Notes under the pieces: generated by a model
What the model was told of the DNA's origin: nothing
Databases searched by the model: none
Seen by the model: only the letters and a program-made list of their open reading frames with translations
Shown here: piece by piece, positions 15,752-21,191 of the stretch
Layout of the letters: every line of letters starts with the position of its first letter
Numbering within the stretch: the first letter of the stretch is position 1
Program-made: the position numbers and the translations under genes
IMG/VR virus record: IMGVR_UViG_3300035228_000540
Coordinates: 1-22,530 of that record
DNA from: a virus
Reading direction: 5' to 3' (one strand)
Length of the DNA: 22,530 nucleotides

Positions 15752-16948
15752 ATGACAACTCCTAACATGATCCAAGACTACAGCACTCTCGATGAGATCT
15801 TCGGTGTGCAAGATGAGCAGCACGTTATCAATGAGAACCTGCTATTCAATAGCGATATGTTGAATCGTTGTCGTGAGGATTGTAAGCAAGATATTAGTAA
15901 AATTATTGTAAAATATAAGGGAGCAATGATTGACAATCAACTACAGTTGGTTGACATTCGCACTGTGCATCCTGCTGGTAAAGAAATCACCAACAATAAG
16001 ACTGGTGAAGTATTACCTAAGGGGTTTCAAGTTCGTGCAGATCATAACATTGATATTGGACACAAAGATGCAATTCTCAATGACATTTTCAACACTGATT
16101 GGAATACTGCTGCTAACACGATAGTTCTGTTTCGTCTGCCTAAAGAGTATCAATATGTAAACAATCAAGGTATTAAAGTTATTTGGGGCATTCTTGATGG
16201 AACTCATCGATATCGTGCTGCTGCTGATGCCAATCAAGAAAATATCATCAGTTGGTTGGTAGATATGAATATTGATGACATCTATAAATTTGCTTGTGCT
16301 GAATTAAATCGTAGTAAGTATAGTGCAAAATCGCGAACTGATCGTGATACTGCTGCGGCAATTCTTCGTTCATATAAGAATCCAAACTCTGAGTTATTCG
16401 CGAAGATTAACAATGTAGAAGAGTGTGAGGTCAATAGTATCTTGATTGAAGAGATTAAGTCTTATAATTATGATCGGAGAAGTGTTAATGCTGTTCTTCG
16501 TATCATTCAACATGATCCTGATGTTACTGTTGATCGTAAGCAATATTCTTCTGCCGAGATGAAGAACTATATTTCAGAACATAAGATTGACTGGATTGAA
16601 GATTCTGGTGATAATCTAGATTATCTTACTAAAAAAGGTGTGCGAGTTATTCTCACTCAAGCAATTGCACGAAACGCTGTTATTGTTGCCCATGACATTT
16701 GTCTCTTGACGCAAAGAAGTAATGCCCCCATTGTCGTTGCATTTGCAACAGATATTAACTCAAAACTGACTCCAGAAAATGCACAAGCACGACGTGAACA
16801 ATTCAGAGAAAAGGTTTACGCAGTGATCAAAGATATGGGTCGAGGTTATAAAGCAATGTTTGAAGATTGTGATGCTGTAAATCCTAGTTGGTTGTGCTTC
16901 CCTGAACTCGCTGATGAGTTTGCCGATGGTATGATCAACCTCATGTGA
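15752..16948 (+). CDS. ParB-like domain protein
   Basis: The 398-residue protein contains ILDGTHRYRAAADA at 147-160, resembling the ParB/Srx-superfamily box (D/E-G-x-H/R-R-x-x-A-A) that binds a nucleotide or Mg in ParB-type proteins. The preceding FRLPKEYQ and IKVIWG strands fit the same fold. The C-terminal 200 residues are helical and could bind DNA (KSRTDRDTAAAILRSY, RRSVNAVLRIIQHDP), but I recognise no HTH signature. Phage ParB-like proteins can be nucleases, CTP switches or modification-system parts; which applies is unknown. It is the last gene of the cassette B unit, and its Met-stop lies in palindrome C. The nuclease/methylase unit follows. Confidence 0.55.
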   Translation: MTTPNMIQDYSTLDEIFGVQDEQHVINENLLFNSDMLNRCREDCKQDISKIIVKYKGAMIDNQLQLVDIRTVHPAGKEITNNKTGEVLPKGFQVRADHNIDIGHKDAILNDIFNTDWNTAANTIVLFRLPKEYQYVNNQGIKVIWGILDGTHRYRAAADANQENIISWLVDMNIDDIYKFACAELNRSKYSAKSRTDRDTAAAILRSYKNPNSELFAKINNVEECEVNSILIEEIKSYNYDRRSVNAVLRIIQHDPDVTVDRKQYSSAEMKNYISEHKIDWIEDSGDNLDYLTKKGVRVILTQAIARNAVIVAHDICLLTQRSNAPIVVAFATDINSKLTPENAQARREQFREKVYAVIKDMGRGYKAMFEDCDAVNPSWLCFPELADEFADGMINLM

Positions 16949-16967
16949 CAGTCAACGAACTGGAGCA
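16944..16967. promoter_or_regulatory. Palindromic element, cassette C
   Basis: Left half TGTGACAGTC (9/10), spacer AACG, right half AACTGGAGCA (7/10). It includes the stop of the ParB-like gene (16946-16948). It begins exactly 53 bp before a -10 box TATTAT at 16997. The right half runs into the terminator stem. Confidence 0.5.
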
Positions 16968-16992
16968 GCGCCCTTGACAGGGGCGCTTTTTT
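16967..16992 (+). terminator. Intrinsic terminator with -35 box in its loop
   Basis: A 7-bp stem (AGCGCCC 16967-16973, GGGCGCT 16981-16987) encloses loop TTGACAG and is followed by five more T residues (six with the last stem base). It ends the cassette B transcript. The loop is at the same time the -35 hexamer of the next promoter. Confidence 0.85.
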
Positions 16993-17005
16993 CATGTATT
17001 ATAAT
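16974..17005 (+). promoter_or_regulatory. Sigma70 promoter for the nuclease/methylase unit
   Basis: A perfect -35 TTGACA (16974-16979) is followed at 17 bp by TATTAT (16997-17002) or at 20 bp by TATAAT (17000-17005). A leader with ATCAAAGGAA leads to the ATG at 17031. Confidence 0.8.
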
Positions 17006-17030
17006 AGTATCAAAGGAACCCACCCCACCC

Positions 17031-17567
17031 ATGTTTGACTCTATCTTTGCTGATGGTTCTCTCCGTGATTACATTGATAGCAACCTCCAAGATCCTTGGA
17101 AGGGCACAAACTTTGAGGGTTATGTATTTCTTTCACCTAAGCAAAAGGGTGAGTTAGGTGAACGATTTGTGTCTCAGTTGATGAATAATCTTGGACACAA
17201 CGTTGAACGTGCTGTAACATCTACAGCGGGACATGATCGCGTTATTAGTAAAATACTGACAGAGATTAAGTTTGCTCTTGCTACTCGTAACAAGAAAGGT
17301 GGCGTGACTGTTGATAAGTTCATCATCAATCATGTCTCTGTAGGTAAAGATTGGGAGCGTCTTATCTTCTGTGGTATCAACCCTGATGAGAAAGATGCTC
17401 GCATTGTGTTCATCACCAAAGCAGACTTTGAAGCACACTTGAAGAGTGATAAGTGCTATTTCAATGTGCAGCAAGGTGGTAAGAAAGTTGGCAACGATGA
17501 CTACATTTGCACAAATGTTGCTGCTCTGCTAGAATGTGACTTCGTGAAGAATATTGCTGAATGGTGA
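17031..17567 (+). CDS. Putative PD-(D/E)XK restriction-type endonuclease
   Basis: The 178-residue protein shows a likely PD-(D/E)XK nuclease core. SPKQKGELGERFVSQLMNNLG (35-55) supplies the N-terminal helix with E41/E44, HDR (68-70) supplies the motif Asp D69, and LTEIKFALATR (76-86) supplies the E78-I-K80 catalytic pair. The strand FIINHVSVGKDWERLIFCGINP and RIVFITKADF complete the fold, and the layout resembles type II restriction enzymes. The open frame extends upstream to 16974, but that part overlaps promoter and terminator, so I chose the ATG at 17031 after AAAGGA. The 3' end overlaps the methyltransferase gene by 7 bases, which supports a paired restriction and modification role. The target sequence is unknown. 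Confidence 0.65.
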   Translation: MFDSIFADGSLRDYIDSNLQDPWKGTNFEGYVFLSPKQKGELGERFVSQLMNNLGHNVERAVTSTAGHDRVISKILTEIKFALATRNKKGGVTVDKFIINHVSVGKDWERLIFCGINPDEKDARIVFITKADFEAHLKSDKCYFNVQQGGKKVGNDDYICTNVAALLECDFVKNIAEW

Positions 17568-18298
17568 ATTTATTACTGGGTGATTGTTTAGATCTTCTGC
17601 CTACGATTGCAGATGATAGCATCGACATGCTGCTGGTAGATTTGCCCTACGGTACAACTGCCTGCAAGTGGGATAGTATTATCCCTCTAGACAAGTTGTG
17701 GGAGCAGTACAACAGAATCTGTAAAGAAAATGCGGCAATGGTATTCACTGCTGCACAACCTTTCACTGCAATTCTTGCTGCTTCAAATATCAAGAACCTA
17801 AAGTATGAATGGATATGGGAGAAACCGCAGGGAACTAACCCCATGAATGCCAAAGTTATGCCTCTTAAGAGTCATGAAAACATCCTGGTATTTTATAGAA
17901 AGAAACCAACATATAACCCTCAAATGTGGTATTCAACTCCGTATAGTGGGTTTAAGTCTGATACAGCAAAGATTGGCGAAGTTTATGGAGAAGCACAATC
18001 TAAGCATCGGGACAACCCCGAGGGGTCTCGCTACCCTAAGACCGTCTTAAAATACAAGCAAGAGAAGGGTTTACATCCAACGCAGAAACCTGTGCCACTA
18101 ATGGAGTATTTGATCAAAACATATACTCATAAAGGTGACACAGTGCTGGATAATACCATGGGTAGTGGTACAACAGGCGTTGCATGTGTCAATACAGATA
18201 GAAACTTCGTTGGAATCGAGATGGATGAGAAATATTTTAATGAAGCACAAACCCGTATCGGATCGCTGAGAAATCCTCTCACTGACCTGTTCATGTGA
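17561..18298 (+). CDS. DNA methyltransferase, N6-adenine/N4-cytosine type (beta class)
   Basis: The 245-residue enzyme has the motif order of beta-class amino-methyltransferases (PF01555 type). The catalytic motif IV DLPYGTT is at 27-33 near the N-terminus, YEWIWEKP at 82-89, and HPTQKPVPLMEYLI at 172-185. The AdoMet-binding motif I DNTMGSGTTGVA lies at 197-208, then GIEMDEKYF. DLPY replaces the more common DPPY but occurs in known relatives. It would methylate an exocyclic amino group of A or C in a specific site. It overlaps the nuclease gene by 7 bases, so it may protect phage DNA from that enzyme, or act alone against host restriction. Its C-terminal Met-stop lies in palindrome D. Confidence 0.92.
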   Translation: MVNLLLGDCLDLLPTIADDSIDMLLVDLPYGTTACKWDSIIPLDKLWEQYNRICKENAAMVFTAAQPFTAILAASNIKNLKYEWIWEKPQGTNPMNAKVMPLKSHENILVFYRKKPTYNPQMWYSTPYSGFKSDTAKIGEVYGEAQSKHRDNPEGSRYPKTVLKYKQEKGLHPTQKPVPLMEYLIKTYTHKGDTVLDNTMGSGTTGVACVNTDRNFVGIEMDEKYFNEAQTRIGSLRNPLTDLFM

Positions 18299-18318
18299 CA
18301 GTTGGTCAAACTGTCCAC
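18294..18318. promoter_or_regulatory. Palindromic element, cassette D
   Basis: Left half TGTGACAGTT is the full consensus; spacer GGTCA; right half AACTGTCCAC. The inner 7 bp (GACAGTT/AACTGTC) are perfectly inverted. It contains the methyltransferase stop (18296-18298) and starts exactly 53 bp before the -10 at 18347. There is no T tract, so it is not a terminator. Confidence 0.65.
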
Positions 18319-18326
18319 TAAACCCC

Positions 18327-18365
18327 CACAGGGCACCAAAATCATGTATATTAAGAGAGTCAAAG
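18327..18365 (+). promoter_or_regulatory. 39-bp repeated promoter, copy 1
   Basis: An identical 39-bp segment occurs here, at 19323-19361 and at 20989-21027. It begins CACAGGGCACC, carries TATATT (18347-18352) as -10 and ends AGAGAGTCAAAG, which supplies the ribosome site. No -35-like hexamer stands 17 bp upstream, which suggests activator-dependent or -35-independent recognition. It would drive 18377-19294. Confidence 0.7.
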
Positions 18366-18376
18366 GGATTCAACCG

Positions 18377-18550
18377 ATGCGAACCACCACCAAAGCACAA
18401 GCACTGGATCAGTTCCGTTACAACTGGAAGGCAAGTGGATCAACAGATAAGGTCGCAAAACGTGAGGCATGGGGCATCTTTACTGATGAACTTTGCCGTG
18501 AGGGTTACATCACCATGAAAAAGTACGAGTCATGGAGCAACCCTTTTTGA
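18377..18550 (+). CDS. Small unknown early protein, paralogue of the 22217 gene
   Basis: The 57-residue protein ends KREAWGIFTDELCREGYITMKKYESWSNPF-like: a helix, then GYIT, then a terminal W-S-N-P-F. The last 36 residues align with the product at 22217 (about 13 identities, including K, E, D, L, R, G, IT, E, W, N, F). The frame is open from 18302, but that part covers the palindrome and promoter, so the ATG at 18377 is preferred. The stop overlaps the next ATG by one base. Function unknown. Confidence 0.75.
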   Translation: MRTTTKAQALDQFRYNWKASGSTDKVAKREAWGIFTDELCREGYITMKKYESWSNPF

Positions 18551-19294: not shown

Positions 19295-19313
19295 CACCCC
19301 TTGTAGTGGCACA
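19290..19313. promoter_or_regulatory. Palindromic element, cassette E
   Basis: Left half TGTGACACCC (7/10), spacer CTTG, right half TAGTGGCACA (7/10). The outer bases TGTGACAC and GTGGCACA are inverted at 7 of 8 positions. It holds the stop of the preceding gene (19292-19294) and starts exactly 53 bp before the -10 at 19343. Confidence 0.55.
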
Positions 19314-19322
19314 CAGACGCCC

Positions 19323-19361
19323 CACAGGGCACCAAAATCATGTATATTAAGAGAGTCAAAG
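19323..19361 (+). promoter_or_regulatory. 39-bp repeated promoter, copy 2
   Basis: Identical over 39 bp to copies at 18327 and 20989; identity with copy 1 extends to 43 bp (19320-19362). The -10 is TATATT (19343-19348) and GTCAAAGGAA precedes the helicase ATG. It gives the helicase its own promoter. Confidence 0.7.
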
Positions 19362-19373
19362 GAACGCCATTCA

Positions 19374-20612
19374 ATGCAACTTCGTCCCCACCAGCAACGC
19401 GCCTTCGATGCCATGCAAGAGCACGACTGTGGGCAGGTGATCATCCCCACTGGCGGTGGTAAAACATACATCATGATCGCAGATGCTCTGCATCGTGCTG
19501 CACAAGGTCAAACGATTGTTGTTGTTGCTCCACGCATCTTGCTCGCTAATCAACTCTGTGAGGAGTTTATGGAGCATATCAGTGGTACTTGGACGCATGT
19601 CTGTCATGCACATAGCGGAGAGACTCACTACTTCAGCAGCACAAAACCTGAGAAGATTGCACTCTTCAATGATACTGCGCGTGCTGCTAGTGAGTCCTGC
19701 ATTATATTCACCACCTATCATTCTCTGCACCGCGTTGTAGATAGTGGCATCAATATTGACACTATCTATTTTGACGAAGCACACAATGGTTGCGGTCGTC
19801 ACTTCCACAAGGCAGTATTTGCCACGGCACAGTATGCCAAGCGTCGTTACTATTTCACTGCTACCCCTAAGAATGGTCGTGGTGTGAGTCTTTCGCGTGG
19901 CATGAATAACACCTCTGTTTATGGTCGCACTCTGTGCAATGTTCCTGCTGCTGAGTTGATCGCTGCTGGTGCAATCGTCCCTCCTAAAATTGTTGCTTTT
20001 GAGACAAGTCGCAGTCGTAACAAGTACAACGCGCACGAGGTTGATGGTGACAACCTGAAGGATATGTTTGAGCAACTTGATGTATTCCAGAATCCTAAAG
20101 TCTTGGTGGCAGCACCATCCAGTAAAGTTCTGGGTAACATGCTCGGACAGACTGATATCCTTGAGTATTTCTATCGCAAGGGATATGACGTGATGCACAT
20201 CACCTCTAAGTTTGGTGCTATCATCAACGACAAGAAAGTAGGACGCGAAGAGTTCTTCCAGACGCTGCAATCGTGGGGTGCTGATGACTCTAAGAAGTTT
20301 GTGATCTTTCACTATTCTATTCTGTCTGAGGGTATCAATGTGCCAGGTCTGACACATACAATCTTGCTGCGTAATCTGCCCATCGTAGAGATGGCACAGA
20401 CAATCGGTCGTGTTATCCGTGTTCATCAAGATGACCGCCGTGATGTTGCTGAGGGTCGCATTCCTGCTGGAGCGTTTCACCTCTACAAGAAATCTGAGGG
20501 TATTGTTACCATGCCAACAGGTTACAAGATGGGCAACGCTATCGCCCAAAGATTGCAAAACGTTGTTAACGCCATCTTCATTGAAGGTATTCCTCCCGTC
20601 GCATTCTGCTAA
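19374..20612 (+). CDS. SF2 DEAH-box DNA/RNA helicase
   Basis: The 412-residue ATP-dependent helicase carries the superfamily 2 motifs in order. LRPHQQRAFDAM (3-14) is Q-motif-like, PTGGGKT (25-31) is Walker A, VVVAPRILLANQ (49-60) is motif Ia, DEAH (134-137) is motif II, TAT (162-164) is motif III, SEGINVPGLTHTILL (318-332) is motif V and QTIGRVIRVH (342-351) is motif VI. It resembles bacterial and phage type-III-res/UvsW-like helicases. T4 UvsW is longer (about 500 residues), and this protein lacks an extra N-terminal domain before the RPHQ motif, so I leave it unnamed. It may remodel replication forks or R-loops. It follows its own promoter and shares one base with the next gene. Confidence 0.92.
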   Translation: MQLRPHQQRAFDAMQEHDCGQVIIPTGGGKTYIMIADALHRAAQGQTIVVVAPRILLANQLCEEFMEHISGTWTHVCHAHSGETHYFSSTKPEKIALFNDTARAASESCIIFTTYHSLHRVVDSGINIDTIYFDEAHNGCGRHFHKAVFATAQYAKRRYYFTATPKNGRGVSLSRGMNNTSVYGRTLCNVPAAELIAAGAIVPPKIVAFETSRSRNKYNAHEVDGDNLKDMFEQLDVFQNPKVLVAAPSSKVLGNMLGQTDILEYFYRKGYDVMHITSKFGAIINDKKVGREEFFQTLQSWGADDSKKFVIFHYSILSEGINVPGLTHTILLRNLPIVEMAQTIGRVIRVHQDDRRDVAEGRIPAGAFHLYKKSEGIVTMPTGYKMGNAIAQRLQNVVNAIFIEGIPPVAFC

Positions 20613-20956: not shown

Positions 20957-20980
20957 CAAACCAGTTGGCAAGGTGTCCAC
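20957..20980. promoter_or_regulatory. Degenerate palindromic element, cassette F
   Basis: CAGTTGG and TGTCCACTA match the same parts of element D, but the outer TGTGA is lost (left half CAAACCAGTT, 5/10). It lies 52 bp (start to start) from the -10 at 21009, one base less than in the other cassettes. No gene stop overlaps it. Confidence 0.35.
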
Positions 20981-20988
20981 TATTCTCG

Positions 20989-21027
20989 CACAGGGCACCA
21001 AAATCATGTATATTAAGAGAGTCAAAG
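20989..21027 (+). promoter_or_regulatory. 39-bp repeated promoter, copy 3
   Basis: Identical over 39 bp to copies at 18327 and 19323. The -10 is TATATT (21009-21014). The following AAAGAAACG is a weaker ribosome site than in the other copies. It would drive 21039-21633. Confidence 0.68.
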
Positions 21028-21038
21028 AAACGAACCCA

Positions 21039-21191
21039 ATGCGCTACACAACTCCATCAGGTCGCGAGTATTACTTCCCTGAGTCAATCTCTCGCTCTGA
21101 AGCACTAGAACGCATGGCACAGTATGCAAAGAAATATGAGAATGATGAGCGTTCTGGACAACAACTATTCGACGACATGTTCGGAGGTTGA
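21039..21191 (+). CDS. Small unknown early protein (50 aa)
   Basis: The product begins MRYTTPSGREYYFPESISRS, a beta hairpin, followed by a charged helix (EALERMAQYAKKYENDERSG) and ends FDDMFGG. The open frame reaches back to 20973 but covers the promoter repeat, so the ATG at 21039 is chosen. It is the first gene of the cassette F unit. Function unknown. Confidence 0.72.
   Translation: MRYTTPSGREYYFPESISRSEALERMAQYAKKYENDERSGQQLFDDMFGG

Follow-up and report, generated by a model that had tools for sequence, protein, structure and literature searches.

Does a T4-like cyanophage carry a restriction-modification system of its own, and if so, how would its DNA escape the enzyme? An earlier note on the 22.5-kb window (the whole stretch of DNA that was analysed) had proposed that two overlapping open reading frames, driven by a strong promoter of their own, encode a restriction endonuclease and a DNA methyltransferase, which are referred to here as R and M. 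Our reading, to which we give a probability of about 0.8, is that R and M together form a type II restriction-modification pair with TCGA as its site, and that phage DNA is spared either by methylation or by loss of the site.

A gene pair that recurs in T4-like cyanophages

The window belongs to a T4-like cyanophage, as it carries purM, tail-fibre-like proteins and small genes common to such phages. The features in and around the gene pair are as follows.

16967..16987, + strand: intrinsic terminator-like hairpin between the pair and the upstream gene, with a 9-bp stem and a T tail
16974..17002, + strand: promoter-like site ahead of R, TTGACA-17-TATTAT, matching the consensus at 11 of 12 bases
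17031..17567, + strand: R, putative type II restriction endonuclease of the PD-(D/E)XK kind, 178 amino acids, phrog_6927 (a family of unknown function)
17561..17567, + strand: overlap of the R stop and the M start, ATGGTGA, 7 bases
17561..18298, + strand: M, beta-class N6/N4 DNA methyltransferase, 245 amino acids, predicted to protect TCGA

As the earlier note had it, the two frames overlap by exactly 7 bases, an arrangement that likely reflects translational coupling. Its claim of a strong promoter stands only in part. Promoter-like sites of this kind are not in excess in the window (5 found compared with 4.0 +/- 2.4 expected from shuffled sequence), and the -35 box of the site upstream of R forms the loop of the terminator-like hairpin. 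Nevertheless, a promoter ahead of the pair is plausible from the sequence, because TGTATAnTAATAGTATCAAAG, directly 5' of the R start, is conserved in several relatives whose upstream genes are unrelated; the -10 region is also partly kept in relatives with other upstream genes. We noted an intergenic repeat, ACAGGGCACCAAAATCATGTATATTAAGAGAGTCAAAG, ahead of several genes (window positions 18307-18390, 19303-19386 and 20969-21052), with a related cassette ahead of R at 16992-17019; the cassette is probably a combined terminator and promoter unit.

Scans of IMG/VR for relatives of R returned 33 and then 148 loci, with 80 kept, and isolates with relatives of R include P-SSM7, S-SSM4 and ACG-2014f, with S-ShM2 and S-BM3 carrying more distant ones. 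The same 7-base overlap was found in 48 of 89 related loci; among the other 41, M follows after a short gap (4 loci), lies beyond an HNH-like insertion (2), is absent from the vicinity (30) or is affected by contig-end cuts (5). Because the identical overlap recurs in so many loci, the coupling of R to M is not due to chance, and a fortuitous overlap with an orphan methyltransferase can be ruled out. The gene upstream of the pair varies (among others, it can encode a ResIII helicase or a 398-amino acid ParB-like protein), and in the loci with no nearby M, which make up about a third, the catalytic residues of R are all kept and R is under purifying selection. Mapped onto the R tree, the presence of M requires about 5 changes (bootstraps give 4-6, and the starred branches force just 2), compared with 17.7 when shuffled, and it is thus probable that the pair was broken up or assembled on several occasions.

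Two further features of these loci were noted. The 398-amino acid protein (15752-16948), which precedes R in the window, contains an ILDGTHRYRAA motif that recalls ParB/Srx proteins, and a family search with it gave no significant match; it also precedes R, directly or one gene apart, in P-SSM7-like and L053/L054-like loci. In L059 (4535-5300), and at the corresponding position of L062, an insertion of about 720 bases separates R from M; it encodes a 212-amino acid HNH-like endonuclease (Pfam HNH E 0.0016, short of the curated threshold), perhaps a homing endonuclease within the module.

Outside phages, no relative of R was found in plasmids or in a scan of genome contigs, the sole cellular relative found being one from Pseudomonadota (L160), described below. 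A search of 386 cyanobacterial genomes with an R profile gave just weak, partial matches (E 0.01-0.1), and a search of cyanobacterial genomes with the type II restriction-enzyme model PDLC03515 gave no relative of R, control genomes likewise yielding no match. Recent acquisition of R from a cyanobacterial host was considered and is unsupported.

The predicted nuclease and its methyltransferase partner

The catalytic residues assigned to R are E44 (in KGxxGE), D69 and E78-I79-K80, and E44, D69, E78 and K80 are invariant in alignments of 20 and 39 members, including distant members at about 30% identity. In the AlphaFold (AF2) model of R (pLDDT 80, pTM 0.78), E44 lies in helix 36-53, D69 opens strand 69-72, and E78 and K80 are in strand 75-83. 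The top structural matches of the model (VIA-align) were the restriction endonucleases Eco15I-N/NhoI (Z 9-10), followed by the restriction endonuclease-DNA complex 3ndh (Z 8.2) and then I-Ssp6803I (Z 8.2; Foldseek rank 1), Hjc resolvases (Z 7-8), DpnI and PvuII; Z scores of 8-10 are moderate, and Foldseek alone gave no match reaching E 0.001. The structure prediction and structural search that the earlier note had called for thus returned a PD-(D/E)XK model with restriction endonucleases as its nearest matches, and the core that it had read from D69, E78 and K80 is supported, with E44 as an extra conserved residue. The PADLOC model PDLC03515 (REase_II) matched window R (E 2e-8) and 20/20 members of alignment A1, with the distant S-BM3 member at E 1.5e-27. 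No Pfam or NCBIfam model matched R, nor was there a Pfam match to Hjc, and searches of PDB sequences with R alone or with an R profile gave nothing convincing. The TaqI family, whose members are known TCGA enzymes, was absent among the Pfam matches (E<=1) of R and its relatives, though R may still be related to it remotely. Further, dN/dS of R is 0.02-0.15 with or without M, indicating purifying selection. Taken together, the identification of R as a restriction-type PD-(D/E)XK nuclease is supported.

M matched N6_N4_Mtase (Pfam E 9.5e-31) and the PADLOC model MTase_II (E 1.2e-85), and its motifs, DLPY at residues 27-30 and GSGTTG at 201-206, stand in the beta-class order, in agreement with the class that had been assigned to it from sequence. 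DLPYGTT was found in M of 48/48 overlap loci, and M is intact in these loci except where contig ends cut it. The family of M consists mostly of lone phage methyltransferases, and we infer its specificity for TCGA solely through that of R.

The two genes display several of the traits that define an orthodox type II system, namely separate, adjacent endonuclease and methyltransferase genes, a nuclease fold with an intact active site, and SAM-binding and catalytic methyltransferase motifs. The pairing that had been suspected is supported by the conserved catalytic residues, the restriction endonuclease fold, the PADLOC matches, the recurrent overlap and the bacterial relative in a restriction-modification pair. 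The earlier note would have counted against this pairing homologues that lack both a methyltransferase partner and the D/E-K residues; homologues without an adjacent M do exist, but loss of these residues was not seen.

TCGA loss in phages carrying R without M

If R is active, phages that carry it without protection should avoid its site. We compared 25 loci with R but no M (R-only) with 72 cyanophage control stretches, comprising 64 purM contigs whose stretch contains no R and 8 isolates that lack R; most controls are fragments, and R may lie beyond their ends. For the R-only set, one near-duplicate and the exceptions L033 and ACG-2014f were first removed, as were the two distant members. In an unbiased scan, TCGA was the most depleted of 136 tetranucleotides in R-only loci relative to controls, with 9 seen and 222 expected (log10 P -81; next was AGCC, log10 P -22), although the loci are related and partly near-duplicates, so that the P values overstate the evidence, the number of independent R-only lineages being about four. 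The top longer depleted words mostly contain TCGA. TCGA fell to 10% of expectation or less in 21/25 R-only loci and in 0/72 controls, and in 1/26 and 14/28 loci with both genes (R+M) of clades A and B, respectively. Cyanophages without R keep the site (observed/expected 0.62). The same is seen in long genomes: S-SSM4 (0 seen/327 expected), a 178-kb contig (G002, 3/262) and G001 (0/85) carry R only, whereas P-SSM7 (256/336) and G003 (96/122) carry both genes. The sole three TCGA sites of G002 (L175) lie within 0.9 kb (70681-71542), as if in recently acquired DNA.

We note that R+M clade B (L056-L090) is TCGA-poor despite an intact M (pooled observed/expected 0.24), and site loss is therefore not strictly tied to loss of M; in this clade, M may be a later addition or may protect incompletely. 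Two close relatives of R without an adjacent M retain TCGA. ACG-2014f (335 seen/416 expected) has five DNA methyltransferase genes in 8 kb (L167:11971-19537; two D12, one N6_N4 and two Eco57I-type), which may explain the survival of the site, and in G005/L033 (206/196) a methyltransferase-like gene lies downstream of R at a distance of about 0.5 kb. Among the distant homologues, TTAA is absent from S-ShM2 (0/590; L181-L189) and reduced in S-BM3 (76/552; L190-L198), and no other phage examined shows TTAA loss. As both keep TCGA, this suggests that the specificity of their R has changed.

It is well documented (PMC4687349) that genomes with orthodox type II systems avoid the corresponding sites. 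The loss of TCGA from genomes that encode R without M supports the view, at the level of genome composition, that R is an active sequence-specific nuclease, and its retention in TCGA-purged phages suggests that R shreds unprotected DNA during infection.

Other palindromes are also missing from these phages. CCGG is near zero in most cyanophages (L199-L217, P-SSM7, S-SSM4 and syn9; L190-L198, S-BM3; L300, L301 and L305), GCGC and CGCG are wholly absent from P-SSM7, and GTAC is missing from 15-kb stretches of Syn1 and S-SM1, and CTAG from one of S-SM2. Such losses may reveal further restriction pressures, whether from the host or from a phage.

Proposed role, alternatives and known systems

We propose that R would cut double-stranded DNA at unmethylated TCGA, and that M would methylate TCGA in phage DNA, probably to TCGm6A. 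During infection, R would then fragment any DNA with bare TCGA, i.e. the host chromosome and the DNA of any co-infecting phage; sampled cyanobacterial genomes, whose kinship to the hosts is assumed, contain 0.7-8 TCGA per kb, about expectation. Phage DNA would be protected by M or, where a lineage has lost M or never possessed it, by near-total elimination of TCGA, so that with R alone the absence of the site would itself be the mark of immunity. On balance we favour the view that the TCGA-specific enzyme is an offensive weapon with two interchangeable modes, together with M or alone after the site has been purged, and that the TTAA sister family may match it.

A tentative but serious alternative, which concerns the role alone and overlaps the reading above, is that the system mainly excludes co-infecting phages or stabilises itself as a selfish module, rather than destroying host DNA. 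Cyanophages without R retain TCGA and would be cut, and the module recurs in changing contexts. However, a module that lives from killing on its loss does not explain purifying selection on R in the absence of M, and because this selection acts with or without M, R pays for itself beyond a mere selfish restriction-modification module. As for exclusion, chlorovirus restriction endonucleases are believed to break down host DNA, and mutual exclusion was found not to result from them (PMC7019647).

It is improbable that TCGA loss is driven by host restriction or another phage nuclease, with R unrelated to TCGA or acting as a junction resolvase or repair nuclease. Cyanophages lose CCGG, GCGC and GTAC with or without R, so another agent can cause such losses, and Hjc resolvases are structural neighbours of R. 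Yet host-driven loss should strike phages without R too, whereas among the sequences examined only R-bearing phages, in about four lineages, have lost TCGA. Even less probable is that R is a homing or otherwise selfish nuclease like I-Ssp6803I lying by chance beside an orphan methyltransferase: the structural match to that enzyme, the movement of R between contexts, its many relatives without M and the mostly lone family of M point this way, but the overlap is identical in 48 loci, a 4-bp palindrome rather than one long site is lost genome-wide, a real HNH-type insertion occurs separately between R and M, and the bacterial relative of R sits in a restriction-modification pair.

If R and M are indeed a TCGA-specific pair, abundant ocean phages would join the few viruses known to have restriction systems of their own, and a mechanism would be at hand by which host DNA is broken down, and phages exclude one another, in cyanobacteria. 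It would also mean that a virus can remodel its entire genome to suit a single enzyme of its own. Site loss offers a sequence-only route to the specificity of phage nucleases, and TCGA is a site that could be tested at once in isolated phages (S-SSM4, P-SSM7, ACG-2014f and S-ShM2).

The nearest cellular counterpart is in L160 (G638, Pseudomonadota), where a relative of R (hhalign E 5e-14 with the phage family; PDLC03515 E 5e-42) has hemE beside it and a beta-class methyltransferase gene 4 bases away, making a cellular restriction-modification pair. It shares with the phage pair the adjoining beta-class methyltransferase but differs in that the latter is of another family (PDLC03300), precedes R and does not overlap it, on a bacterial contig. 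NhoI/Eco15I (PDB 8q5n, 8rpx and 8q5o) show the best structural likeness to R, over about 130 residues, at just 14-16% identity; according to their PDB titles, these are complexes with methylated DNA targets, whereas the predicted substrate of R is unmethylated TCGA. The S-BM3 "restriction endonuclease" (T4-GC_685, with relatives in S-ShM2 and S-RIM14) is a distant member of the R family (about 33% identity) and has the same active-site motif but, unlike window R, no adjacent methyltransferase; TCGA is kept, and TTAA is lost in S-ShM2 and reduced in S-BM3. In the open-licence papers searched, no description of the R and M pair in cyanophages was found; a comparative analysis of T4-like cyanophages lists an N6A-methylase once, and its main text does not contain the words restriction or methyltransferase (PMC3037559). 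Chloroviruses likewise have adjacent R and M genes in a lytic virus, with packaged endonucleases (PMC7019647), but they infect eukaryotic algae and carry the enzymes in their virions, whereas the pair described here belongs to T4-like cyanophages, and some cyanophage lineages, unlike chloroviruses, appear to swap methylation for site loss. Overall, virus-borne type II restriction-modification is already known from chloroviruses, and what appears to be new is that it recurs in T4-like cyanophages and that methylation is exchanged for loss of the site.
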